Of a stretch of 64,000 bases of DNA, positions 1,272-64,000 are shown in pieces; position 1 is the stretch's first letter, and each line of letters begins with the position of its first letter. The notes below the pieces were generated by a model. The model saw nothing but the letters and a program-made list of their open reading frames with translations, had not been told where the DNA came from and did no database searches. Origin of the DNA: Thalassospira sp. GTDB lineage: Bacteria; Pseudomonadota; Alphaproteobacteria; Rhodospirillales; Thalassospiraceae. The stretch covers positions 682,001 through 746,000 of the forward strand of contig NZ_JAUYHK010000011.1 in assembly GCF_030690045.1 (NCBI RefSeq), given 5' to 3'. A program made the position numbers and the translations under genes.

Positions 1272-2003
1272 ATGAACAACACCGCGCCCAAAAAAACGCA
1301 ACGCAAAATTTCCCTGACCGAAAAAGTCATCGCCAGCCTGCGCAGCGAGATCGAAGGCGGCAATCTGACGCCGGGGACAAAATTGCCAACCGAACCGGCC
1401 TTGACCGAAAAATTCGGCGTCAGCCGCACCGTCATCCGCGAGGCGATTGCCGCCCTCAAGGCCGATGGTCTGCTGGAACCGCGTCAGGGTGCCGGGGTGT
1501 TTGTTCTGGCCCCTAGTCCCCGTAAACTCAGCGGTTCGATCTTTGCCGTCGATTATGCGCAGATTTCCGATGTACTGGAAATTCTTGAACTGCGCATGGC
1601 GGTGGAAATCGAGGCGGCGGGCCTGGCCTGTGCCCGCAGTTCGGTGGCACAACAGGCCAAGATTTACGAAGCCTTGCAAGAAATGACCGATCAGGTCGAA
1701 AAAGGCAGTCCTGCCGAAAAGGCCGATTACGAATTTCACCGCGCCATCGCCGACGCCACCAACAATCGCCGTTATGGTGAATTTCTGGAATATCTGGGCG
1801 ACAAGACCATTCCGCGTGCGCAACTGCGCCGCAAACCGGCCGAGGCCGCCGATCAGGCCGCCTATATGGCAAAAATCCTGACCGAACATCACCGGATTTA
1901 CGATGCGATTGCCACCCGCGATTCTGAAAAAGCCCGGCAAGCGATGCGCGACCATCTCAGCCAAAGTCAGGCCCGGTATCAAAGCCTGTTGCGGCAACGC
2001 TAA
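1272..2003 (+). CDS. GntR-family (FadR subfamily) transcriptional regulator
   Basis: A 243-residue regulator with an N-terminal winged HTH (LTEKVIASLRSEI, LPTEPALTEKFGVSRTVIREA, LEPRQGAGVFV, about residues 15-80) and an all-helical FCD ligand domain (about 100-230) with the metal-binding pattern D/E, H and H (FHRAIADATNN, HHRIYDAI, MRDHL). FCD regulators usually sense organic or sugar acids and repress adjacent genes. The start at 1272 leaves about 12 residues before the HTH, as is usual. An upstream ATG at 1212 is also in frame and neither has a strong ribosome-binding site. The stop overlaps the convergent HAD gene by four bases. Likely target: the surrounding sugar genes. Confidence 0.85.
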   Translation: MNNTAPKKTQRKISLTEKVIASLRSEIEGGNLTPGTKLPTEPALTEKFGVSRTVIREAIAALKADGLLEPRQGAGVFVLAPSPRKLSGSIFAVDYAQISDVLEILELRMAVEIEAAGLACARSSVAQQAKIYEALQEMTDQVEKGSPAEKADYEFHRAIADATNNRRYGEFLEYLGDKTIPRAQLRRKPAEAADQAAYMAKILTEHHRIYDAIATRDSEKARQAMRDHLSQSQARYQSLLRQR

Positions 2004-2728
2004 AGCATGGTACCGGCAAAGGCGACGTTGATATCATCCATGGTGCGAAATACCCGCCCGGCCCCTGCTGCAATCAGCCGGTCGGTTGCCTGATCCCGGT
2101 CATCTTCATAATGCCCGCCACCGACAAATCCCCAGCAGGCTATACCGGCGGCAACCGCCGCCTGCACCCCGGCCACTGAATCCTCAATCACCAGACACTG
2201 ATCAGGTGCAAAGCCCATTTTTTCGGCGGCAAATAAAAACAGATCAGGGGCCGGTTTGCCGTTGGCCACAAAATCGGCACTGTAAACCCGGCCTTCAAAC
2301 CAATGGCCCAGACCGGTAACCTCCATCGTGACTTCCAGCCGGGCGACAGAACTGCTTGATGAAATGCAAAAAGCCGTACCACGGTCGCGCAAAGTATGCA
2401 GAACGGCATCAATCCCGTTGATTTTATGCAATTCCGTCTGATAACGCGCAAACAGCCGGTCATAGAAAACCGGTTTGAAACTGGCGCTGACATCCTGCCC
2501 GGTGGTGTCGTGAATATGGCGGATCGGGGCGGCACTGGACCGGCCGGTAAAACGGGTGGCAATGTCCTGTGCTGACAGGGGGGCACCAAAATGTCGCAAC
2601 ACATCCCCCAGCGTCGAAAGCGATATCGGTTCGCTATTGACCAGAACCCCGTCACAATCAAACAGCACCGCACCGCCGGAAAATGGCCGTAGATCGGATG
2701 AAAAATCAGCTGCCTGATCAGAAGTCAT
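2000..2728 (-). CDS. HAD-superfamily hydrolase, beta-phosphoglucomutase-like
   Basis: A 242-residue HAD subfamily IA protein. Motif I is FDCDGVLVNSE (about residues 24-34, with the nucleophile and general-acid Asp), motif II is SSSS after CI (about 120), and motif III/IV comprise GKPAPDLF and IEDSVAGVQAA (about 170-190). The DxDGVL..SE version is typical of small-sugar phosphatases and beta-phosphoglucomutases. A ribosome-binding site (AGAGAG) precedes the ATG. It diverges from the pentulose kinase, which makes sugar phosphates, so it may remove or rearrange sugar-phosphate by-products; substrate unknown. Confidence 0.82.
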   Translation of the reverse strand: MTSDQAADFSSDLRPFSGGAVLFDCDGVLVNSEPISLSTLGDVLRHFGAPLSAQDIATRFTGRSSAAPIRHIHDTTGQDVSASFKPVFYDRLFARYQTELHKINGIDAVLHTLRDRGTAFCISSSSSVARLEVTMEVTGLGHWFEGRVYSADFVANGKPAPDLFLFAAEKMGFAPDQCLVIEDSVAGVQAAVAAGIACWGFVGGGHYEDDRDQATDRLIAAGAGRVFRTMDDINVAFAGTML

Positions 2729-2810
2729 TGAACTCTCTTGTGGTATCTTTTACGCAAGGGTGGTGACACAAACCCTAGACGGGCGGCAATATCGCCGTCA
2801 ATGAAAATGA

Positions 2811-2849
2811 TCAATTGACCATATGATGATCTTTTGTTCAATTGACCAC
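2811..2849. promoter_or_regulatory. Direct repeat TCAATTGACCA, likely regulator-binding region of the pentulose kinase gene
   Basis: The 11-base word TCAATTGACCA occurs at 2811-2821 and again at 2839-2849, 28 bp apart, and each copy contains the palindrome TCAATTGA. Between them lies TATGATGA (2822-2829), shared with the GntR gene's own upstream region. The pair sits 35-70 bp before the kinase start, where a repressor or activator would act. The binding protein is not known; the GntR regulator at 1272-2003 is the obvious candidate. Confidence 0.45.
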
Positions 2850-2883
2850 CAAATCATAAAATCGGGCAGGAGACCACACGACC

Positions 2884-4473
2884 ATGACCCATCCGCAAAA
2901 CATCCTTATTGGTGTCGATGTCGGAACCGGCAGCGCACGCGCCGGGATTTTCCGCGATGATGGTACCCTCCTTGCCAGCGCCGCCTGCCCGATTGCCATG
3001 AACCGCCCGCAGGCCGATTTTGTCGAACAGGATTCAGAAAATATCTGGTCAGCGGTATGCCAGTCGATCCACGAGGCCTTGGGCAAAGCGGCAATTCGCC
3101 CCGAACAGGTCGCCGCGATTGGGTTTGACGCCACCTGCTCACTGGTCATCCGCAGCACCGATAACCGCCCCCTGCCCGTCTCCCCTGATGGATCGGCCAA
3201 TTGGGATGTCATTGTCTGGATGGATCACCGGGCCGTGCGCGAGGCCGAAGAATGCACCAAAACCGGGGAAAAGGTGCTGGATTATATCGGCGGCACCATG
3301 TCGCCGGAAATGGAAATTCCCAAACTGATGTGGCTGAAACGCCATAACCCCAAAGTCTGGGCGCAAATGGGAGCCGCCTATGATCTGGCAGATTTTCTCG
3401 CCTTTCGCGCCACCGGACGCGACAGCCGGTCCTGCTGCACCCTGACCTGCAAATGGACCCATCTTGCCCATCAGGACCAACCGTGGGATGGCGGTTTTCT
3501 GGCGCAAATCGGCCTTGATGATTTTGCTGCCAAAACCGGTATCGCCCGCCCGGCCCTGTCGGTCGGAGCTGATGCCGGGAACCTGACAGCACAGGCGGCG
3601 TCGGAACTGGGTCTGACTTCCGATTGCCGGGTCGGGACAGGTTTGATCGACGCCCATGCCGGGGCGCTGGGTACGCTGGGCGCGCACTTGCAGGGCAATC
3701 TGGATGACCGTCTGGCGATGATCGCCGGAACATCCACCTGCCACATGGCGCTGTCCGCCGAAGCACGGTTTATCAAAGGCGTCTGGGGACCGTATTTCGG
3801 GGCGATTGTTCCGGGCATGTGGCTGAACGAAGGCGGGCAATCGGCAACCGGGGCGTTGCTGGACCATATTGTCGCCCTGCATCCCTTTGCCCGCGATCTG
3901 GGCCGCGAGGCACATCGTCTGGCCGCCGAAAAACTGTTGCCGCGAATGCGCGAAACGGCCGATCTCGCCCCGCGCCTGCATGTGTTGCCCGATTTTCATG
4001 GCAACCGGTCGCCACTGGCCGATCCCGAGGCGCTGGGCGTGATCAGCGGCCTGACGCTGGATCAAAGCGAAGACAGTTTTCTGGATCTTTACTGGGCCAC
4101 CGCCTGCGCCATTGCCTATGGCACCCGCCATATCATTGATGCGCTAAATGACGCCGGATACAGCATCCGCCACATCCATCTCAGCGGCGGCCACACCGCA
4201 AGCCCGGTGCTGGTGAAACTTTATGCCGATGTCACCAACTGCGACGTTGTGATGTCTGATTGCGCCGAGCCGGTCCTGCTGGGATCGGCGATGCTGGCCG
4301 CCGCCGCCCTTCATCCCGAAAATGCCAATGGCGCACTGGAATCCGCCGCCCGCGCCATGGCGGCCCCCGAAACCGTGATAATGCCCGATCCGGCGGCGCG
4401 TGCCGACCATGACCGGCGCTATGCCATTTTCCATCGCCTGCACGCGCACCGGCAAGAAATTGACGGGATATAA
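2884..4473 (+). CDS. FGGY-family pentulose kinase (D-ribulokinase type)
   Basis: A 529-residue ATP-dependent carbohydrate kinase. The N-terminal half opens with GVDVGTGSARAGIF (phosphate-binding) and contains GFDATCSLV and WMDHRA; the C-terminal half has AGTSTCHMAL, LNEGGQSATGALLDH and the FGGY-type adenosine motif LSGGHTASPVLVKLYADV. This D.TCSLV/WMDHRA pattern is that of the pentulose-kinase branch acting on D-ribulose (ribitol pathway), not classical xylulokinase. A good ribosome-binding site (AGGAG) lies eight bases before ATG. Epimerase, phosphatase and GntR neighbours fit a pentose/pentitol cluster. Exact sugar is inference. Confidence 0.85.
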   Translation: MTHPQNILIGVDVGTGSARAGIFRDDGTLLASAACPIAMNRPQADFVEQDSENIWSAVCQSIHEALGKAAIRPEQVAAIGFDATCSLVIRSTDNRPLPVSPDGSANWDVIVWMDHRAVREAEECTKTGEKVLDYIGGTMSPEMEIPKLMWLKRHNPKVWAQMGAAYDLADFLAFRATGRDSRSCCTLTCKWTHLAHQDQPWDGGFLAQIGLDDFAAKTGIARPALSVGADAGNLTAQAASELGLTSDCRVGTGLIDAHAGALGTLGAHLQGNLDDRLAMIAGTSTCHMALSAEARFIKGVWGPYFGAIVPGMWLNEGGQSATGALLDHIVALHPFARDLGREAHRLAAEKLLPRMRETADLAPRLHVLPDFHGNRSPLADPEALGVISGLTLDQSEDSFLDLYWATACAIAYGTRHIIDALNDAGYSIRHIHLSGGHTASPVLVKLYADVTNCDVVMSDCAEPVLLGSAMLAAAALHPENANGALESAARAMAAPETVIMPDPAARADHDRRYAIFHRLHAHRQEIDGI

Positions 4474-52469: not shown

Positions 52470-52519
52470 CCACGATCCCGGCGCGGATGATTATCCGCGC
52501 CGGGCCATAATGCATAAAT

Positions 52520-52557
52520 TTTAATCACCAAAAATGAACAAGATTAAAATTTAATCA
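52520..52557. repeat. Paired TTTAATCA boxes upstream of the nrtA sigma-54 promoter
   Basis: TTTAATCA occurs at 52520-52527 and 52550-52557, 30 bp apart, in an AT-rich block that also contains the perfect dyad GATTAAAATTTAATC (52542-52556). The second box ends 99 bases before the -24 element, the usual enhancer distance for sigma-54 promoters. The same pair occurs before nirB. Confidence 0.55.
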
Positions 52558-52655
52558 TTATTTTCTGTGCGGCGCACATATAATAACCGCATCAAAATCA
52601 GGGATTTTGGCAGACCTACCTGAAATCACATCATAATTTATCTATTCCCGGCTTC

Positions 52656-52670
52656 TGGCACATTGTTTGC
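52656..52670 (+). promoter_or_regulatory. Sigma-54 promoter of the nitrate ABC operon
   Basis: TGGCAC (52656-52661), five bases, TTGC (52667-52670) followed by A: a perfect -24/-12 element. The start of transcription would be near 52682, two bases before the first leader hairpin. Confidence 0.85.
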
Positions 52671-52683
52671 AGTTGCTCAGTCA

Positions 52684-52735
52684 GGTTCCATGATTGTTTC
52701 TGGAACCCCGAAATACCGCACCCAATGATGGGTGC
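52684..52735 (+). promoter_or_regulatory. ANTAR-target leader RNA of nrtA (two hexaloop hairpins)
   Basis: Hairpin P1: GGTTCCA (52684-52690) with TGGAACC (52701-52707), inner G-U closing pair, hexaloop ATTGTT (52693-52698). Hairpin P2: GCACCC (52718-52723) with GGGTGC (52730-52735), hexaloop AATGAT (52724-52729). Both loops have A at position 1 and G at position 4, the known recognition pattern for ANTAR antiterminators; the linker is ten bases. NasT (61169-61756) is the expected ligand. Confidence 0.82.
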
Positions 52736-52742
52736 CTCAGGC

Positions 52743-52807
52743 AAAGCCGCCGAATGAACACATCCCCTGTTGCACCAGGGCGATAATGTTCGTTCGGCGG
52801 CTTTTTT
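52743..52807 (+). terminator. Leader terminator of the nitrate ABC operon
   Basis: An 18-base arm (52743-52760) pairs with 52787-52804 with a single G-U wobble; core AGCCGCCGAA/TTCGGCGGCT. A T-run (52802-52807) follows. A small CCCTG/CAGGG stem lies in the loop. The terminator lies 44 bases before nrtA, so NasT-mediated antitermination would be needed to express the operon. Confidence 0.88.
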
Positions 52808-52850: not shown

Positions 52851-54251
52851 ATGCGTTCATTAAAATTTACCCGCCGCACTCTGTTAGGCGCAGCCGCCTC
52901 TGTTCTGCTGATGACGACAGGTCTTTTCCCCGCCCATGCCGATATGCTGGATGTGGAAAAGGACGAATTGAAATTTGGTTTCATCAAGCTGACCGACATG
53001 GCCCCGCTGGCGATTGCCTACGAAAAAGGTTTTTTCGAGGATGAAGGCCTGTTTGTCACCCTTGAACCGCAGGCCAACTGGAAGGTCTTGCTGGATCGTG
53101 TGATCACCGGCGAACTGGACGGCGCGCATATGCTGTCCGGGCAACCGATTGCCGCGACCATCGGTTTTGGCACCCCCGCCCACATCGTCACCCCCTTCAC
53201 GATGGATTTGAATGGCAACGCCATTACCGTTTCCAACGATGTCTGGGCGATGATGAAACCCCACATTCCGACGGACGCCGATGGCAAATCGGTCCATCCG
53301 GTCAAATCCGATACCCTCAAACCGGTGATTGATCAATTCAGGGCCGAAGGCAAGCCGTTCAATATGGGCATGGTGTTCCCGGTTTCGACCCACAATTACG
53401 AACTGCGTTACTGGCTGGCGGCGGGTAATATTCACCCTGGCTATTATTCGCCGACCGACATTTCCGGCCAGATCAAGGCCGACGCCCTGCTTTCCGTCAC
53501 CCCGCCACCGCAAATGCCCTCCACCCTTGAGGCAGGTACCATTCACGGTTACAGCGTAGGCGAACCCTGGAACCAGCAGGCCGTTTTCAAGGGCATTGGC
53601 GTCCCGGTCGTCACCGATTACGACATTTTCAAAAACCGGTCGGAAAAGGTATTTGGCATTACCGCCGACTTTGCCAAACAAAATCCCAACACCACGCTGG
53701 CCCTGACCAAGGCCCTGATCCGTGCCGCCCAATGGCTGGATGAAGGCGACAATGCCAACCGGATGGAAGCCGTCGAAATCCTGTCACGACCCGAATATGT
53801 CGGGGCGGACAAGGAAGTCATCGCCAATTCGATGACCGGCACCTTTGAATATGAAAAGGGCGACAAACGCGACGTTCCCGATTTCAACGTGTTTTACCGT
53901 CACTTTGCCACCTATCCCTATTATTCCGATGCCGTCTGGTATCTGACGCAAATGCGCCGCTGGGGCCAGATTGCCGAACACAAGGATGATGCATGGTACG
54001 CAGAAGCCGCAAAATCGGTCTATCTGCCCGATATTTATCTTGAGGCCGCCAAAATGCTGGTCGAGGAAGGCCACGTTGCCGAGGCCGACTTTCCGTGGGG
54101 CAGCGACGGTTATCGCCCGACAACCCCGGCAACGGACGTCATTGATGGCATTCCGTTCGATGGCAAACAGCCGAACGCCTATATCGATTCCCTGCCGATT
54201 GGCCTGAAATCCGGCCAGATCATCGACGGCAACGAGGTTGCAGGCAGTTAG
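52851..54251 (+). CDS. nrtA: Nitrate ABC transporter substrate-binding protein NrtA
   Basis: A 466-residue periplasmic protein with a Tat-type signal ([17 protein letters not shown] to PAHA, about 31 residues). The NrtA/CmpA pattern follows: [28 protein letters not shown] (in part: [19 protein letters not shown]), [30 protein letters not shown] and [10 protein letters not shown]. The start at 52851 follows the leader terminator; only weak pairing (CAAAG) is seen for a ribosome-binding site. First gene of nrtA-nrtB-nrtCD. Confidence 0.93.
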
Positions 54252-54263
54252 GCCACGCAAGCC

Positions 54264-54290
54264 GGGCCGGTCTTTCGCCATGACCGGCCC
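54264..54290 (+). other. Intercistronic stem-loop between nrtA and nrtB
   Basis: GGGCCGGTC (54264-54272) and GACCGGCCC (54282-54290) form a perfect 9-bp stem with a 9-base loop, 12 bases after the nrtA stop. No T-run follows. Confidence 0.6.
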
Positions 54291-54342
54291 TGCCCCGGCA
54301 CACCGCCAGATATTTCCCGAAAGAATTCCAAGGATCTGCAAG

Positions 54343-55422
54343 ATGGCCCATGCAACAGATGCCCATTCCACCCCGGCAGTCGCCCCGCGCCGCGAAAAAA
54401 TCTTCACGGCGATCAACAAGGCCAGCGGCTGGCTTGACGCGTTGGGGTTTTCCTGGCTGACACCCCTTTTGAAAATGATCGCGGGCGACAGTCCGCGTGA
54501 ACAGCTTCATGAACTTAAACGGGTTCTGGTTATTCCCTTGCTGGGGATTGGTCTGTTTCTGGTGGCGTGGGGCGTTCTGGCCCCCAAGGTTGAAACATCA
54601 CTGGGCGCCATCCCCGGCCCGGCGCAGGTCTGGGAACAGGCGGTGAATTTGTGGGATGATCATGTGCGCGAACGCGAAAAAGCCGCCGATTTTTATGATC
54701 GTCAGGACGAACGCAACGCCAAACTGATCGCCAGCGGCGATGCCGACAAAATCAAAATGCGGACCTATACCGGCAAGCCGACCTATATCGATCAAATCAT
54801 CACATCGCTGTTTACCGTCGGGCTGGGGTTTGCGATTGCGACACTGGTGGCCGTGCCGCTGGGCATTGCTTCGGGCCTGTCGAAAACCTTCAATGGTGCG
54901 ATCAACCCGCTGATCCAGATTTTCAAACCGGTATCACCCTTGGCGTGGCTGCCGATTGTCACGATGATTGTCTCGGCCCTGTATGTCGATACCAGCGATC
55001 TTTTTCCAAAATCGCTGGTAATTTCGGCCGTCACGGTGATGTTGTGTTCGATGTGGCCGACCTTGATCAATACTGCGGTTGGCGTCGCCTCTATCGACAA
55101 GGATTTGATGAATGTCGGCAAGGTCTTGCAATTGCCGACCCGCAAAACCATCACCAAACTGGTCCTGCCATCGGCCTTGCCGCTGATTTTTACCGGGTTG
55201 CGCCTGTCGCTGGGCGTGGGCTGGATGGTTTTGATTGCCGCTGAAATGCTGGCGCAAAATCCCGGTCTTGGCAAATTTGTCTGGGATGAATTTCAAAACG
55301 GATCGTCGCAATCGCTGGCCAAAATCATGGTTGCGGTTCTGACGATTGGCATTGTCGGCTTCATGCTGGACCGGGTGATGTATGCGCTGCAACGCGCCTT
55401 CACCTTCTCGGCCAACCGATAG
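54343..55422 (+). CDS. nrtB: Nitrate ABC transporter permease NrtB
   Basis: A 359-residue permease with about six membrane segments. It has a long cytoplasmic N-terminus, one helix at about residues 62-85, a soluble insert ([18 protein letters not shown]) and then the BPD_transp_1 domain with the coupling motif [22 protein letters not shown] and [20 protein letters not shown]. The start at 54343 follows AAGGA. It ends 11 bases before the ATPase gene. Confidence 0.92.
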
Positions 55423-55433
55423 GGGCAGGAATA

Positions 55434-57218
55434 ATGGCATTTCTTGAAATTTCCGGCCTGTCAAAACATTATGGCGACGGCGTACGGCGCACCGATGTCC
55501 TGTCCGATATCAATCTGAAAGTCGAGGAAGGCGAATTCATCGCCATTGTCGGTTTTTCCGGATCAGGCAAAACCACCCTGATTTCCGCCCTTGCCGGGCT
55601 GATTGCCCCCGACCGGGGCGGCGTCATCTTCAAGGGCAAGGAAATCAGCGGCCCCGGCCCGGAACGCGGCGTGGTGTTTCAATCCTATTCGCTGATGCCC
55701 TGGCTGTCGGTTTTCGGCAATGTGTCATTGGCCATCGATAGTGTTTTCAAGGCCAAACCGAAATCCGAACGCGCCGCGATTGCCGAAAAATACATCAATA
55801 TGGTCGGGCTGTCACATGCCCGCGACCGCAAACCTGCCGAACTTTCGGGTGGGATGCGCCAACGGGTGGCGGTCGCCCGTGCCCTTGCGATGCAACCCGA
55901 AGTCCTGCTGATGGATGAGCCATTATCCGCCCTTGATGCCCTGACCCGCGCCAAATTGCAGGATGAATTTGCCGCCATTTGCGGGCAGGAGAAAAAGACC
56001 ATCATCCTGATCACCAATGATGTGGACGAGGCCATCCTGCTGGCAGATCGCATTATTCCGCTCAAACCCGGCCCCAATGCCACACTGGGCCCAGAATTCA
56101 GGGTGACATTGCCCCGCCCGCGGGATCGGGCCGATATGAATAGCGACCCCGAATTCATCCGCCTGCGTGCCGCCGTGACCGATTATCTGATGACCATCGG
56201 TGCCGAACGCGGGGCGGAAACCGACCGAGACATCATCCTGCCCGATATTGTGCCGATCACTAAAAAAACCGGCTCTACTACCACCATCGGCAATGCACCG
56301 CCTGCGGCAATCCTTGCCGCCGGGGCATCGCACAAGGATGCCGGTTTTCTGGAATTCAAAAATCTCAGCAAGGTTTACCCGACCCCCAAGGGACCGCTGA
56401 CCGTGGTGGACGGGTTCGATCTTTCCATGAACAAAGGCGAATTCATCACCCTGATCGGTCATTCCGGCTGCGGCAAATCAACTGTTTTGTCGATGGTGTC
56501 GGGCCTGAACAATATCAGCGACGGCGCGATCATCCTTGATGGCACTACCATCACCAAAGCCGGGCCGGACAAGGCCGTGGTATTTCAGGCCCCGTCATTG
56601 CTGCCGTGGTTGACGGCCTATGACAATGTGGCACTGGGGGTCGATCAGGTTTATCCGCACGCCACCCGGCAGGAACGCAAGGATGTCGTCGAATATTACC
56701 TGTCGCGGGTCGGGTTGGCGGATTCCATGCACAAACAGGCCGCCGATCTGTCGAACGGCATGAAACAGCGGGTTGGCATTGCCCGCGCCTTTGCCCTGTC
56801 GCCAAAATTGCTGCTGCTCGACGAACCGTTTGGCATGCTGGATTCCCTGACACGCTGGGAATTGCAGGATGTGTTGATGGATGTCTGGAAACGCACCCGG
56901 GTCACCGCGATTTGCGTCACCCATGATGTGGACGAGGCAATCCTGCTGGCCGACCGGGTGGTGATGATGTCGAATGGCCCCAATGCCCGCATCGGCAATA
57001 TCATGGAGGTCGATCTGCCCCGGCCCCGGTCGCGCAAGGCGTTACTGGATCATCCCGATTATTACGCTTACCGCGAAGAACTTCTGGAATTCCTCGAAGC
57101 CTATGAAGGCGGGGCGCATCCCGATGAACATCTGTTGCAAAGCATCAAACAAAAACGCGCATCACGCATGCAGCGACAGGAAACCGCCCCGCCGCGCCTG
57201 ATGGCGGTCGCCGAATAA
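55434..57218 (+). CDS. Nitrate ABC transporter ATPase, two NBDs fused (NrtC-NrtD equivalent)
   Basis: A 594-residue fusion. NBD1 (about 1-270): Walker [10 protein letters not shown], signature [15 protein letters not shown], Walker [13 protein letters not shown]-loop ITNDVDEA (Asn for His). NBD2 (about 300-594): Walker [10 protein letters not shown], signature [15 protein letters not shown], Walker [13 protein letters not shown]-loop VTHDVDEA. In cyanobacteria NrtC and NrtD are separate and NrtC carries a regulatory NrtA-like domain; here that domain is absent. The two composite ATP sites are unequal (see findings). Confidence 0.92.
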
Positions 57219-59981: not shown

Positions 59982-61166
59982 TCAGTCGATCACATCCGGG
60001 GTGAAAATGCTGTTATCCAAAAACCCGTCCGGTCCGACCAACGCCCGGTCCGGCGCATCTCGCAATCCCTCAATCCGCCAGTCTTCTCGCGGCAGGGCAA
60101 CATCCATGCCCGCCACCGCCGTCCGGTACAGATCGGGGCGATAAACCCGTTTGACCATTTCCGCCATATTGATATCCAGCGGCGCCTGTCCCCAACGCTG
60201 CATTTGCGATCCAACCCATTGCCCCTGCGACAACCACGGGAAAGTGGCGGTATAGCGATAAAAAACATGGCGGTCCGGCACATCAATCACCTCGCCGCCC
60301 GGTCGCAAGACCGGCTGTCCGCCCAGTGACGCCTTTAAAATATCAAACGACGCCCCGACATGCCCCTCATCGGCCAACAATTGCGCCAGTTCCGTGCGGT
60401 TTTCCGCCTGATCAGCCCATTCAGCGGCCCGCACCAACGCCCGCACCAGCGACGATACCGTATCGGGGTTCGATATTGCCCAGTCTTCGCGCACACCCAA
60501 AACCTTTTCCGGGCTGCGCGGCCAGATATCGTCTTTCAGGGCGACAATCACCCCGTCGCCATGAAATACAGCACGCAAATTCCACGGTTCACCGACGCAA
60601 TACCCGTCCACCCAGCCATTGCGCAGACTGTCAAACATCCGGGGAGGGGCAATCACCCCGATATTGATATCCTGATCCGGGTCAATCCCGGCCGCCGCCA
60701 GCCAGTATCGCAATTCGTAATTATGGCTGGAAAACGGAAACACCGTTGCAAAGGACATCACCGGGCGTCCGTGCGCCCGGTCATCCTCGATCACTTTTTT
60801 CAACGCCCGTGCGCTTAAACCGCGCGGTCCCTGCATGATCTGCGGGGCAAGTTCCAGCATGCGCTGATACAGGCGGGTGGACACGGTAATCGCATTCCCC
60901 CCCCGACCCAGCGCCATCGGCACCACCAGATTTTGCGCCGGCATCCCGCCCAGACCGATCCGCGCCGCCAGCGGAATCCCCGCCAGCATGTGCGCTGCAT
61001 CAAAAACGCCATAGGATAATTTGTCGCGGATCGCCGCCCATGACATTTCCCGGATCAGATGCAGATCAATATTTTCCGCAACATCAAACCCCTGCGCGTG
61101 GGCCACCACCGGCAGGGCACAATCAACCAGCGGCACAAAACCAAGACGGACAATTTTGCGTGTCAT
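59982..61166 (-). CDS. nasS: Cytoplasmic nitrate sensor NasS
   Basis: A 394-residue NrtA/CmpA-like protein. It lacks any signal peptide (begins MTRKIVRLGFVPLVDCA) but keeps the nitrate-binding pattern of Nrt[35 protein letters not shown] and GYCVGEPWNL. In known systems NasS sequesters NasT without nitrate and releases it when nitrate binds. It is two bases downstream of nasT, so the two are made together. Confidence 0.92.
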   Translation of the reverse strand: MTRKIVRLGFVPLVDCALPVVAHAQGFDVAENIDLHLIREMSWAAIRDKLSYGVFDAAHMLAGIPLAARIGLGGMPAQNLVVPMALGRGGNAITVSTRLYQRMLELAPQIMQGPRGLSARALKKVIEDDRAHGRPVMSFATVFPFSSHNYELRYWLAAAGIDPDQDINIGVIAPPRMFDSLRNGWVDGYCVGEPWNLRAVFHGDGVIVALKDDIWPRSPEKVLGVREDWAISNPDTVSSLVRALVRAAEWADQAENRTELAQLLADEGHVGASFDILKASLGGQPVLRPGGEVIDVPDRHVFYRYTATFPWLSQGQWVGSQMQRWGQAPLDINMAEMVKRVYRPDLYRTAVAGMDVALPREDWRIEGLRDAPDRALVGPDGFLDNSIFTPDVID

Positions 61167-61168
61167 GC

Positions 61169-61756
61169 TTAGAACTCCAACTGAAAAGCCGTGATCACGC
61201 TTTGCGCGATATCGTAAATTTTGCGGTTATGCTTCATGGCGTTCTTGCGCAAAAGCGCATAGGCCTCCTCCTCGCTCAGACCTTTTTGCTGCATCAGGAT
61301 ACCCTTGGCCCGCTCGATCAGCTTGCGTTCGCCCAGTTTGGCCTGTGCCTCGTCGCGTTCGCGGCGCAACTGGTCAAAGGCATTGAAACGGGAAATCGCC
61401 ATTTCGACAATCGGACGAATACGATCCTGCCGCAAACCATCCACGACATAGGCACTGACCCCGGCCTCCACCGATGCCGTGATCATCGAACTGTCGCTTT
61501 GCCCGACGAACATGGCAATCGGGCGTTTGATGGCACGCGACACCTGAAACATCTGTTCCAGCGTGTCGCGGTCCGGGTTTTCAAGGTCAATAATGATTAC
61601 ATCCGGGGCAAGGGCTTGCACCCGTTCCACCAGATTATACGATGTGCCGATCCGGCTGACCCTTGTATAGCCACCTTCGGCAAGGCCGCGTTCGACAATG
61701 GCCGCGCGGTCGGTATCCTCGTCGATTACCAGAATGCTGAATTCTTCAAGTTTCAT
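61169..61756 (-). CDS. nasT: ANTAR-domain transcription antiterminator NasT
   Basis: A 195-residue protein with an N-terminal receiver-like domain (LVIDEDTDRA at about 9-18; VIIIDLENPDRDT with the usual Asp at about 57) and a C-terminal ANTAR domain (KLIERAKGILMQQKGLSEEEAYALLRKNAM in part: AKGILMQQKGLSEEEAYALL, about 145-165, then IYDIAQSVI). ANTAR proteins bind paired hexaloop hairpins in leader RNA and prevent termination. Three such leaders lie in this window. AGGA precedes the ATG. Confidence 0.93.
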   Translation of the reverse strand: MKLEEFSILVIDEDTDRAAIVERGLAEGGYTRVSRIGTSYNLVERVQALAPDVIIIDLENPDRDTLEQMFQVSRAIKRPIAMFVGQSDSSMITASVEAGVSAYVVDGLRQDRIRPIVEMAISRFNAFDQLRRERDEAQAKLGERKLIERAKGILMQQKGLSEEEAYALLRKNAMKHNRKIYDIAQSVITAFQLEF

Positions 61757-63379: not shown

Positions 63380-63427
63380 TCGCCCGCCATTGGACGAAGA
63401 ACTGTGATTTCCCCGGCACTGGGGAAA
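63380..63427 (-). promoter_or_regulatory. Candidate ANTAR-target leader RNA of narK
   Basis: On the minus strand, hairpin P1 has 7-bp arms (63421-63427 with 63408-63414) and hexaloop AGTGCC; P2, ten bases later, has a 5-bp stem with one A-C mismatch (63392-63397 with 63380-63385) and hexaloop AATGGC. Both loops again have A1 and G4. No convincing U-tailed terminator was found between P2 and narK, so this is weaker than the other two. Confidence 0.5.
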
Positions 63428-63463
63428 TACCGCAAACATTGCGGCGATCACGCCATCAGATTT

Positions 63464-63478
63464 GCAAACGCCACGCCA
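63464..63478 (-). promoter_or_regulatory. Candidate sigma-54 promoter of narK
   Basis: On the minus strand TGGCGT (63478-63473), five bases, TTGC (63467-63464) followed by A. The -12 is perfect, the -24 has two mismatches to TGGCAC. The predicted start (near 63452) lies 25 bases before the candidate leader hairpins. Confidence 0.45.
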
Positions 63479-63583: not shown

Positions 63584-63633
63584 TATGTTTATTTTTTAAT
63601 CATCACGCGCACCGTATGTTTGTTTTTTAATCA
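63584..63633. repeat. 19-bp direct repeat with TTTAATCA boxes in the narK-nirB control region
   Basis: TATGTTTRTTTTTTAATCA occurs at 63584-63602 and 63615-63633 (R is A, then G), period 31 bp. The second copy ends 96 bases before the nirB -24 element and the first starts about 117 bases beyond the candidate narK -24, so it could serve both genes. Confidence 0.6.
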
Positions 63634-63728
63634 CATCATAATTCGCCCAAAATCTGTGCAGTGCCAATTGGGGCGAAATTCTTTTCTATTCCAGCCGATT
63701 ACAGTTTTTTGCCAACCCATACCGGTTC

Positions 63729-63743
63729 TGGCACGCATCTTGT
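63729..63743 (+). promoter_or_regulatory. Sigma-54 promoter of nirB
   Basis: TGGCAC (63729-63734), five bases, TTGT (63740-63743) followed by A; one mismatch to the -24/-12 consensus. Transcription would start near 63755. Confidence 0.78.
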
Positions 63744-63779
63744 ATAGAAGGGGGCAGCGCAGACACAGATGTTTGCTGC

Positions 63780-63841
63780 GCCGGTCGAAGACCGGCTTAC
63801 ATACTGAATCCAATGTCGGGTTCACCGGATAATGACGTCCG
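63780..63841 (+). promoter_or_regulatory. ANTAR-target leader RNA of nirB
   Basis: An upstream stem GCCGGTC/GACCGGC (63780-63796) is followed by P1: GAATCC (63806-63811) with GGGTTC (63818-63823), hexaloop AATGTC; and P2: CGGAT (63826-63830) with GTCCG (63837-63841), hexaloop AATGAC. Both loops have A1 and G4. The 3' strand of P2 is also the start of the terminator arm, so the two folds exclude each other, as an antitermination switch requires. Confidence 0.82.
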
Positions 63842-63885
63842 TTGCAAGATCAGCTTTATCGCAGATCGGCATCGGGCGTTTTTTT
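63836..63885 (+). terminator. Leader terminator of nirB
   Basis: Arm 63836-63851 (CGTCCGTTGCAAGATC) pairs with 63864-63878 (GATCGGCATCGGGCG) with two internal mismatches/bulges; a run of seven T (63879-63885) follows. It ends 39 bases before nirB. Confidence 0.75.
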
Positions 63886-63924
63886 ATTGCAAATTCGCTT
63901 CCCGCGACATGGAGCCAGAGACAG

Positions 63925-64000
63925 ATGAATCACGTCCCTGCACCCGCCAGTATTACCGGAACCGCCCGCCCCCGCCTTGTCGTGATCGGCAATGGCATGG
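63925..64000 (+). CDS. nirB: Nitrite reductase (NADH) large subunit NirB, N-terminal fragment
   Basis: Only 25 codons are inside the window. After a short variable start (MNHVPAPASITGTARP) comes RLVVIGNGMA, the FAD-binding start of NirB-type NAD(P)H-nitrite reductases (VVIGNGMAG). GGAG lies upstream. The setting (nitrate transporters, NasT/NasS, sigma-54 leader) supports assimilatory nitrite reductase. Confidence 0.82.
   Translation, partial: MNHVPAPASITGTARPRLVVIGNGM

Follow-up and report, generated by a model that had tools for sequence, protein, structure and literature searches.

The DNA upstream of nirB in this Thalassospira genome very probably serves the nirB-nirD-nasA operon as a leader for NasT-dependent transcription antitermination. 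It encodes two hairpins with A1/G4 hexaloops, P1 and P2, of which the second overlaps an intrinsic terminator, and a third A1/G4 hexaloop, H0, upstream of both. The anatomy, the conservation, the co-occurrence with NasT and the exclusive folds are computed here; NasT binding and the nitrate response would follow from published relatives. The antitermination mechanism itself is already published (PMC3369931, PMC8934654), and H0 is the new part. We lean slightly towards the view that Rhodospirillales-type NasT leaders are three-hexaloop devices, in which H0 is a genuine ANTAR site and serves to load NasT onto the nascent RNA before the P1/P2 decision.

Genomic setting

The window, the whole stretch of 64 kb that was analysed, belongs to a genome of 4.23 Mb (23 contigs, 97 percent complete) whose NasT has its nearest named relatives in Thalassospira, of the order Rhodospirillales in the NCBI taxonomy. 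The gene names nrt, narK, nirD and nasA were assigned from families and from reading of the sequences.

52851-57218, plus strand: nrtA, nrtB and a double ABC protein
59982..61166, minus strand: nasS, encoding an NMT1_2-family protein; adjoins nasT
61169..61756, minus strand: nasT, encoding receiver-like and ANTAR domains; the sole ANTAR match in the genome
61875-63230, minus strand: narK (MFS transporter), divergent from nirB
63925..64000, plus strand: start of nirB, an open frame whose full length of 863 aa runs beyond the window

Past the window end, the 863-residue nirB frame is followed by nirD- and nasA-like frames. The nasS product is the presumed nitrate/nitrite sensor of NasT, by analogy with Paracoccus (PMC3795266). 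A Pfam PF03861 search of the whole genome found one ANTAR domain, that of NasT. Since the only ANTAR protein of the genome is NasT and is encoded close by, the reading of the nirB upstream region as an ANTAR leader is supported.

Anatomy of the nirB leader

The leader consists of a promoter-like element, four hairpins and a terminator.

63729..63744, plus strand: sigma54-like promoter element TGGCACGCATCTTGTA, GG-N10-GT, read from sequence
63759..63776 (loop 63765-63770), plus strand: H0 hairpin gcagac-ACAGAT-gtttgc, the third, 5'-most A1/G4 hexaloop
63780..63796, plus strand: spacer hairpin S, gccggtc-GAA-gaccggc, between H0 and P1, without an ANTAR-type loop
63805..63824 (hexaloop 63812-63817), plus strand: P1 hairpin tgaatcc-AATGTC-gggttca, A1/G4, C:G closing pair, 7 bp
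63826..63841 (hexaloop 63831-63836), plus strand: P2 hairpin cggat-AATGAC-gtccg, A1/G4, U.G closing pair, 5 bp
63834..63885, plus strand: intrinsic terminator with 5' arm GACGTCCG (63834-63841), 3' arm CGGGCGTT (63873-63880) and T7 (63879-63885)

The sigma54 promoter consensus has GG and GC at a spacing of 10 nt, with TTGC as the -12 element. In TGGCACGCATCTTGTA, the -12 C is replaced by T, giving TTGT. The pattern TGGCAYG-N4-TTG[TA]A is present in 22/22 Thalassospira nirB loci (L033-L054, own included), and the 23rd, L055, is masked at the promoter site. Thus spaced, the element ends with GT in our nirB leader and with G[TA] in the other nirB leaders, and the nrtA and narK leaders of the same genome carry GG-N10-GC. 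Repeats of the TTTTTTAATCA type are found 5' of the nirB promoter at approximately 63585-63640 and are partly conserved in ten aligned Thalassospira sequences. Similar blocks occur at 52515-52575, upstream of the nrtA leader of this genome. The repeats are perhaps an activator site. Simple patterns detected no classic NtrC site upstream in the own sequence.

P1 and P2 both have the hairpin features that define an ANTAR two-hexaloop leader, namely hexanucleotide loops, stems of at least 3 bp and A1/G4. The distance between them, from A1 to A1, is 19 nt. The loops of P1 and H0 close on C:G and that of P2 on U.G in 23/23 loci; C:G is the closing pair favored by NasR in SELEX (PMC7496416). The U.G pair of P2 counts, like the TTGT of the -12 element, among the points against the NasT-leader reading. 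The spacer S has variable CGG..CCG counterparts in many congeners. The first-pass annotation had placed a TGGCAC-N5-TTGT element, P1 with AATGTC, P2 with AATGAC and a terminator with seven T at 63729-63885, and all of these elements are present. It had also described GTCCG as common to P2 and the terminator arm. This sharing is real and larger than claimed, as the 8-bp 5' arm of the terminator covers not only the 3' arm of P2 but also P2 loop positions 4-6. G4 is therefore buried once the terminator forms.

No Rfam 15 family matched in the window, nor up to an E value of 1 in 63700-63950. A simple promoter/terminator scan gave no terminator in the window because the stretch between the arms exceeds the loop limit of 8 in that scan. 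When both strands of the 64 kb were scanned for two A1/G4 hexaloops with a P2/terminator overlap, exactly two sites were found, the nirB and nrtA leaders. The same scan gave zero sites when 1.5 Mb of NasT loci were shuffled once in 2-base blocks. A P1-P2 core model, searched against the genome (best 150 of 2774 candidates), matched strongly only these two leaders, with E values of 9e-9 and 2e-8 and the next at 0.036; the values are rough, since both own leader sequences are included in the model.

Predicted folding and the proposed antitermination switch

The nirB leader folds better than its dinucleotide shuffles (z -3.2; 1/200 as good). With the RNA start placed near 63755 as the probable position, the free fold consists of H0, S, P1 and the terminator at -55.3 kcal/mol, and the fold with P1 and P2 imposed reaches -45.5 kcal/mol. 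The pair probability of P2 depends on the 3' end of the RNA: it is 0.95-0.97 for ends at 63841-63870, 0.56 at 63875 and zero at 63878. Since P2 pairing is lost to the terminator by 63878, termination is the predicted default. The stability of P2 for the earlier ends leaves approximately 35 nt of elongation during which it would be open to capture by a protein. The anatomy and the predicted folds in both states thus uphold the earlier claim that P2 and the terminator are mutually exclusive.

The proposed sequence of events is as follows. A sigma54-type promoter, probably responding to nitrogen limitation, would make the leader RNA. As the RNA emerges, H0, S and P1 would fold, followed by P2. 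Without nitrate or nitrite, NasS would hold NasT; when the RNA end passes approximately 63875, the loop and 3' arm of P2 would be drawn into the terminator, and transcription would stop at the U-tract. In the presence of nitrate or nitrite, NasT would be freed, bind the A1/G4 hexaloops and stabilize P2, keeping the terminator from forming. H0 may capture NasT early and hand it on to P1/P2, whose capture would have to happen while roughly 35 nt are transcribed.

The NasT protein of this genome can be aligned to EutV (6wsh/6ww6), to NasR (4akk) and to an antiterminator from a mycobacterium (1s8n). R142, K143, Y164, R168 and M172 of EutV are kept in NasT, K147 is replaced by R, and N173, R175 and R177 are replaced by K, N and K, in a numbering from which the EutV chain appears to be offset by two relative to the paper. 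In the receiver domain, the acceptor Asp is kept, and the lysine of the EutV YLVKPL motif is replaced by D, as expected if NasS, and not a kinase, controls NasT. In Paracoccus, nitrate or nitrite splits the NasS-NasT complex, and the RNA bound by NasT is the nasA leader (PMC3795266).

Conservation in Thalassospira

Orthologues of nirB were found in 23/29 Thalassospira genomes, own included; the search gave 25 matches, of which two weak paralogue matches (L056, L057) were left out. P1 and P2 both keep their A1/G4 hexaloops in 23/23 of these loci. The first-pass annotation had named relatives that keep the genes and lose the A1/G4 pair as evidence against its reading, and no such relative was seen in the genus. 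NasT is found in the 23 nirB-bearing genomes and is missing from the six without nirB (five of them fully scored, and G042 judged on the best 10 of 31 candidates). Strong motif matches (E below 1e-6) are likewise confined to the 23 genomes with nirB and NasT, with the best 150 of 1906-3496 candidates considered per genome and several of these sequences being in the model. Together with the anatomy, the folds and the sole ANTAR protein, the 23/23 conservation bears out an ANTAR leader before nirB.

An attenuator that works without NasT, by leader-peptide coupling or as a metabolite riboswitch, would also explain a stable leader followed by a terminator, and in this species a frame of 12 codons starts at 63769. 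However, the start codon of this frame is absent from the other aligned Thalassospira leaders, and leader-peptide attenuation was rejected for this reason. The lack of an Rfam match and the tracking of NasT by the motif also argue against such an attenuator, which we consider highly improbable.

NasT-type leaders beyond the genus

The strict two-hexaloop motif occurs in 49/80 named NasT loci (44 without doubtful matches), and 31/80 have none. L093, L101, L105, L139, L126 at 5508 and L129 were dropped as doubtful before the cores were listed, and alignment A2 comprises 36 of the 47 distinct cores. To lessen circularity, leaders were also anchored on P2 and the terminator, with the letters of P1 left free. 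The P1 loop is then A1/G4 in 82/95 distinct leaders (26/26 from Thalassospira and 56/69 others); six have G1/G4, and seven have other letters. With all letters allowed in the 80 loci, 42/84 matches had A1/G4 in both loops. Another 25 paired A1/G4 with G1/A4, and these are taken for register shifts of the same leaders.

The stems had been offered as evidence of function because they differ between the two leaders of one genome under fixed loop positions. Two leaders are weak evidence by themselves, and within the genus the P1 and P2 stems are invariant, with no covariation above shuffles in 15 sequences. Across genera, covariation is seen: the stem score is 0.433, against a shuffled mean of 0.204 and at most 0.084 when slid, and double changes occupy 52 cells versus 18 when shuffled. 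Cruder measures are less clear, as 74/500 shuffles reached the observed both-side pair changes and 37/500 the further pair types. Outside Thalassospira, the two outermost pairs of P2 mostly fail to form.

Hexaloop hairpins are short and common, and some could stand by chance in front of an ordinary terminator. Yet one shuffle of the 80 loci gave no motif match, all 23 Thalassospira loci keep the loops, and the E value is about 2e-8 in a 4.2-Mb genome (rough, as the model includes this sequence). A chance origin is scarcely credible.

Variants of the arrangement were also observed. The nas loci L086, L099 and L138 each have two dual-hexaloop leaders approximately 3.5 kb apart. P1 loops with G at position 1 (GAGGCT, GCAGAT) are found in L159, L160 and L205, so NasT-type leaders do not strictly require A1. 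Leaders of the order from L221, L223, f10 and f21 did not resolve into the motif.

A third hexaloop upstream of P1

H0, which the first-pass annotation did not mention, has A1 and G4 fixed in 23/23 Thalassospira nirB loci, own included, with loop positions 2, 3, 5 and 6 varying. The loops are ACAGAT, AAGGTC, AGTGTC, AAAGCT, AGAGCC and AGCGAC. The stem is unbroken in 22/23 loci, and L052 has one mismatch with A1/G4 kept. Of the cells in the stem alignment, 98.9 percent are paired; one double change occurs, and within-genus covariation overall is not above shuffles. In the predicted fold of this species, the H0 stem has a pair probability of 0.99, and A1 and U6 of the loop also pair, leaving a tetraloop. 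Several other leaders have an upstream hexaloop that can likewise close by pairing of positions 1 and 6.

To score the recurrence of H0, the region from promoter to P1 was searched for its most stable hexaloop hairpin, with unconstrained letters, and the outcome was compared with dinucleotide shuffles. A1/G4 was obtained in 20/21 distinct Thalassospira nirB leaders, the 21st being L052. Seventeen of 20 other Rhodospirillales-type leaders gave a purine at position 1 and G4 (11 A1 and 6 G1; 0.80 expected). This group consists of 15 leaders of the order of the window (14/15) and five from four named loci, L074-L077, placed with them by judgement (3/5); L075 is titled Hyphomicrobiales and L077 Pseudokordiimonas, and the Kiloniellaceae locus L127, without A1/G4, was left among the 46 leaders below. 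L230 and L260 (f27, doubtful P1) were left out, and counting them as misses gives 17/22; L191 and L205 duplicate L076 and L160 and were removed. In L162, the hairpin scored (GGAGAC) is the spacer, and the miss of L074 also fell on the spacer. Both have an A1/G4 hairpin further upstream, and the count corrected by H0 identity would be 18/20. Among the 46 other, mainly rhizobial, leaders, A1/G4 was found in 5/46 (0.29 expected) and G1/G4 in none.

The H0-bearing leaders outside Thalassospira are nirB or nrtA leaders with unrelated stems. H0 lies 47-52 nt from P1 in the Thalassospira nirB leaders and in some other nirB leaders with a spacer hairpin between, and approximately 25-35 nt from P1 in the remaining leaders. 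Folding out of S would bring these distances into line. The three-hexaloop reading accordingly takes H0 at approximately 25-35 nt before P1, or at approximately 50 nt with an intervening spacer hairpin. In 22 further loci, of which 20 have a promoter-like site, 46 hexaloops were found, 28 with A1/G4 and four with G1/G4. Three of the 13 f27 loci (L235, L246, L250) have three A1/G4 hexaloops, and two f21 leaders lack this type. A different layout is seen in the f17 nrtA leaders L209 and L211, where two A1/G4 hexaloops are approximately 40 nt apart with an unrelated hairpin without such a loop between them.

H0 could be a 5' structural hairpin serving stability, spacing or 5' end protection, its loop letters kept by descent, with P1-P2 acting as the only NasT antiterminator. 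P1-P2 alone is enough for NasR binding (PMC7496416), an A1/G4 hairpin 5' of P1 is lacking in 41/46 of the mainly rhizobial leaders, and in this species the loop of H0 can shrink to a tetraloop. However, descent and structure do not readily account for positions 1 and 4 being fixed with 2, 3, 5 and 6 changing in 23 loci, nor for the return of purine-1/G4 in 17/20 other leaders on unrelated stems, before both nirB and nrtA. We find this structural role rather doubtful. Most likely, H0 is a third NasT hexaloop that would catch NasT early and hand it to P1/P2. In the EutV-RNA structure, G4 makes a base contact and A1 makes none; the G1 variants of H0 fit this structure for that reason (PMC8934654). 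No leader with three ANTAR hexaloops was found in the literature accessible to search or in passages of PMC7496416 and PMC8164766.

The nrtA and narK leaders

Two further leaders of this genome share parts of the design.

52656..52807, plus strand: nrtA leader, the first of the two, with promoter TGGCACATTGTTTGCA (52656-52671)
52718-52735, plus strand: its P1 hairpin gcaccc-AATGAT-gggtgc
52740-52751, plus strand: its P2 hairpin ggc-AAAGCC-gcc
52743-52760 and 52787-52804, plus strand: arms of its terminator, with T6 at 52802-52807
63386..63478, minus strand: narK leader with TGGCGTGGCGTTTGCA (63463-63478) and hexaloops AGTGCC (63415-63420) and AATGGC (63386-63391)

The P1-P2 spacing of the nrtA leader is also 19 nt. 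A clean H0 is present in 0/3 Thalassospira nrtA leaders, own included. In the own nrtA leader, positions 52680-52705 include the hairpin ggttcca-TGATTGTTTC-tggaacc; ATTGTT lies within its 10-nt loop, at the distance expected for H0. This hairpin may be a decayed H0; it is missing from the two other Thalassospira nrtA leaders (L059, L060).

The narK leader, like H0, is new relative to the first-pass annotation. Its site is the third-best match of the P1-P2 model in the own genome (best 150 of 2774), and 10/29 Thalassospira genomes, the own one among them, have matches at this site with E values of 0.009-0.07. In 22 aligned sequences (the window and 21 others), the leader has a TGGC-N7-TTGCA promoter and a hexaloop hairpin TCGTCC-AAYGGC-GGRCGA. 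A second hexaloop lies 28-29 nt upstream, on a stem that is short in many; 21 sequences have A1/G4 in it, and L039 has G1/G4. No U-tract was found downstream in the sequences viewed, and most predicted folds (12 sequences) contain a long imperfect hairpin downstream. The narK pair may act by a route other than that of a terminator-type leader.

Comparison with known systems

EutV binds hexaloops of this kind and keeps the terminator from forming (PMC3369931, PMC8934654). The eutP, eutG, eutS and eutA leaders of Enterococcus faecalis resemble the nirB leader in having two A1/G4 hexaloop hairpins, the second within an intrinsic terminator, and a receiver-ANTAR protein (PMC3369931, PMC8934654). 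The A1-to-A1 distance is 24 nt in eutP (A29/A53 in its numbering) versus 19 nt here. Unlike the EutV leaders, the nirB leader has an upstream H0 and a sigma54-like promoter, and NasT is expected to answer to NasS and not to a kinase. The Klebsiella oxytoca NasR/nasF leader also serves a nitrate assimilation operon and has the two-hairpin motif with terminator overlap (PMC3369931, PMC7496416). NasR itself, unlike NasT, senses nitrate by its NIT domain, and the accessible parts of these papers mention no third hexaloop for the nasF leader.

The Paracoccus denitrificans system shares the NasS-NasT pair, the nas operon and a hairpin leader, which NasT binds in vitro (PMC3795266, PMC5424462). The nasA leader is described with two hairpins, HI and HII, as opposed to H0, P1 and P2 here, in a comparison of unaligned sequences (PMC5424462). 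HI is needed for expression and growth on nitrate, and a chromosomal mutant of hairpin I lost growth on nitrate (PMC5424462). A change in HII left nitrate activity relatively unaffected and doubled ammonium activity (PMC5424462). In Bradyrhizobium diazoefficiens, NasT-interaction hairpins are described in several operons (nosR, nirA and narK), and narK is higher in a nasT mutant; the likeness to our leaders is one of description, not of sequence (PMC6759348).

The manner in which two hexaloops serve one ANTAR dimer is still under discussion. The EutV-RNA structure suggests that the loops are bound singly, and its authors propose successive binding (PMC8934654). Three-hexaloop leaders, set beside the mainly rhizobial two-hexaloop leaders, could readily be used to test models of recruitment and hand-over. 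If the three-hexaloop reading is true, the two-hexaloop rule covers only part of the family, and natural three-hexaloop leaders would widen the pattern used for predicting ANTAR regulons. In Thalassospira, nirB, probably narK, and nrtA in the three genomes that have it would be placed under one nitrate-responsive RNA-binding protein.
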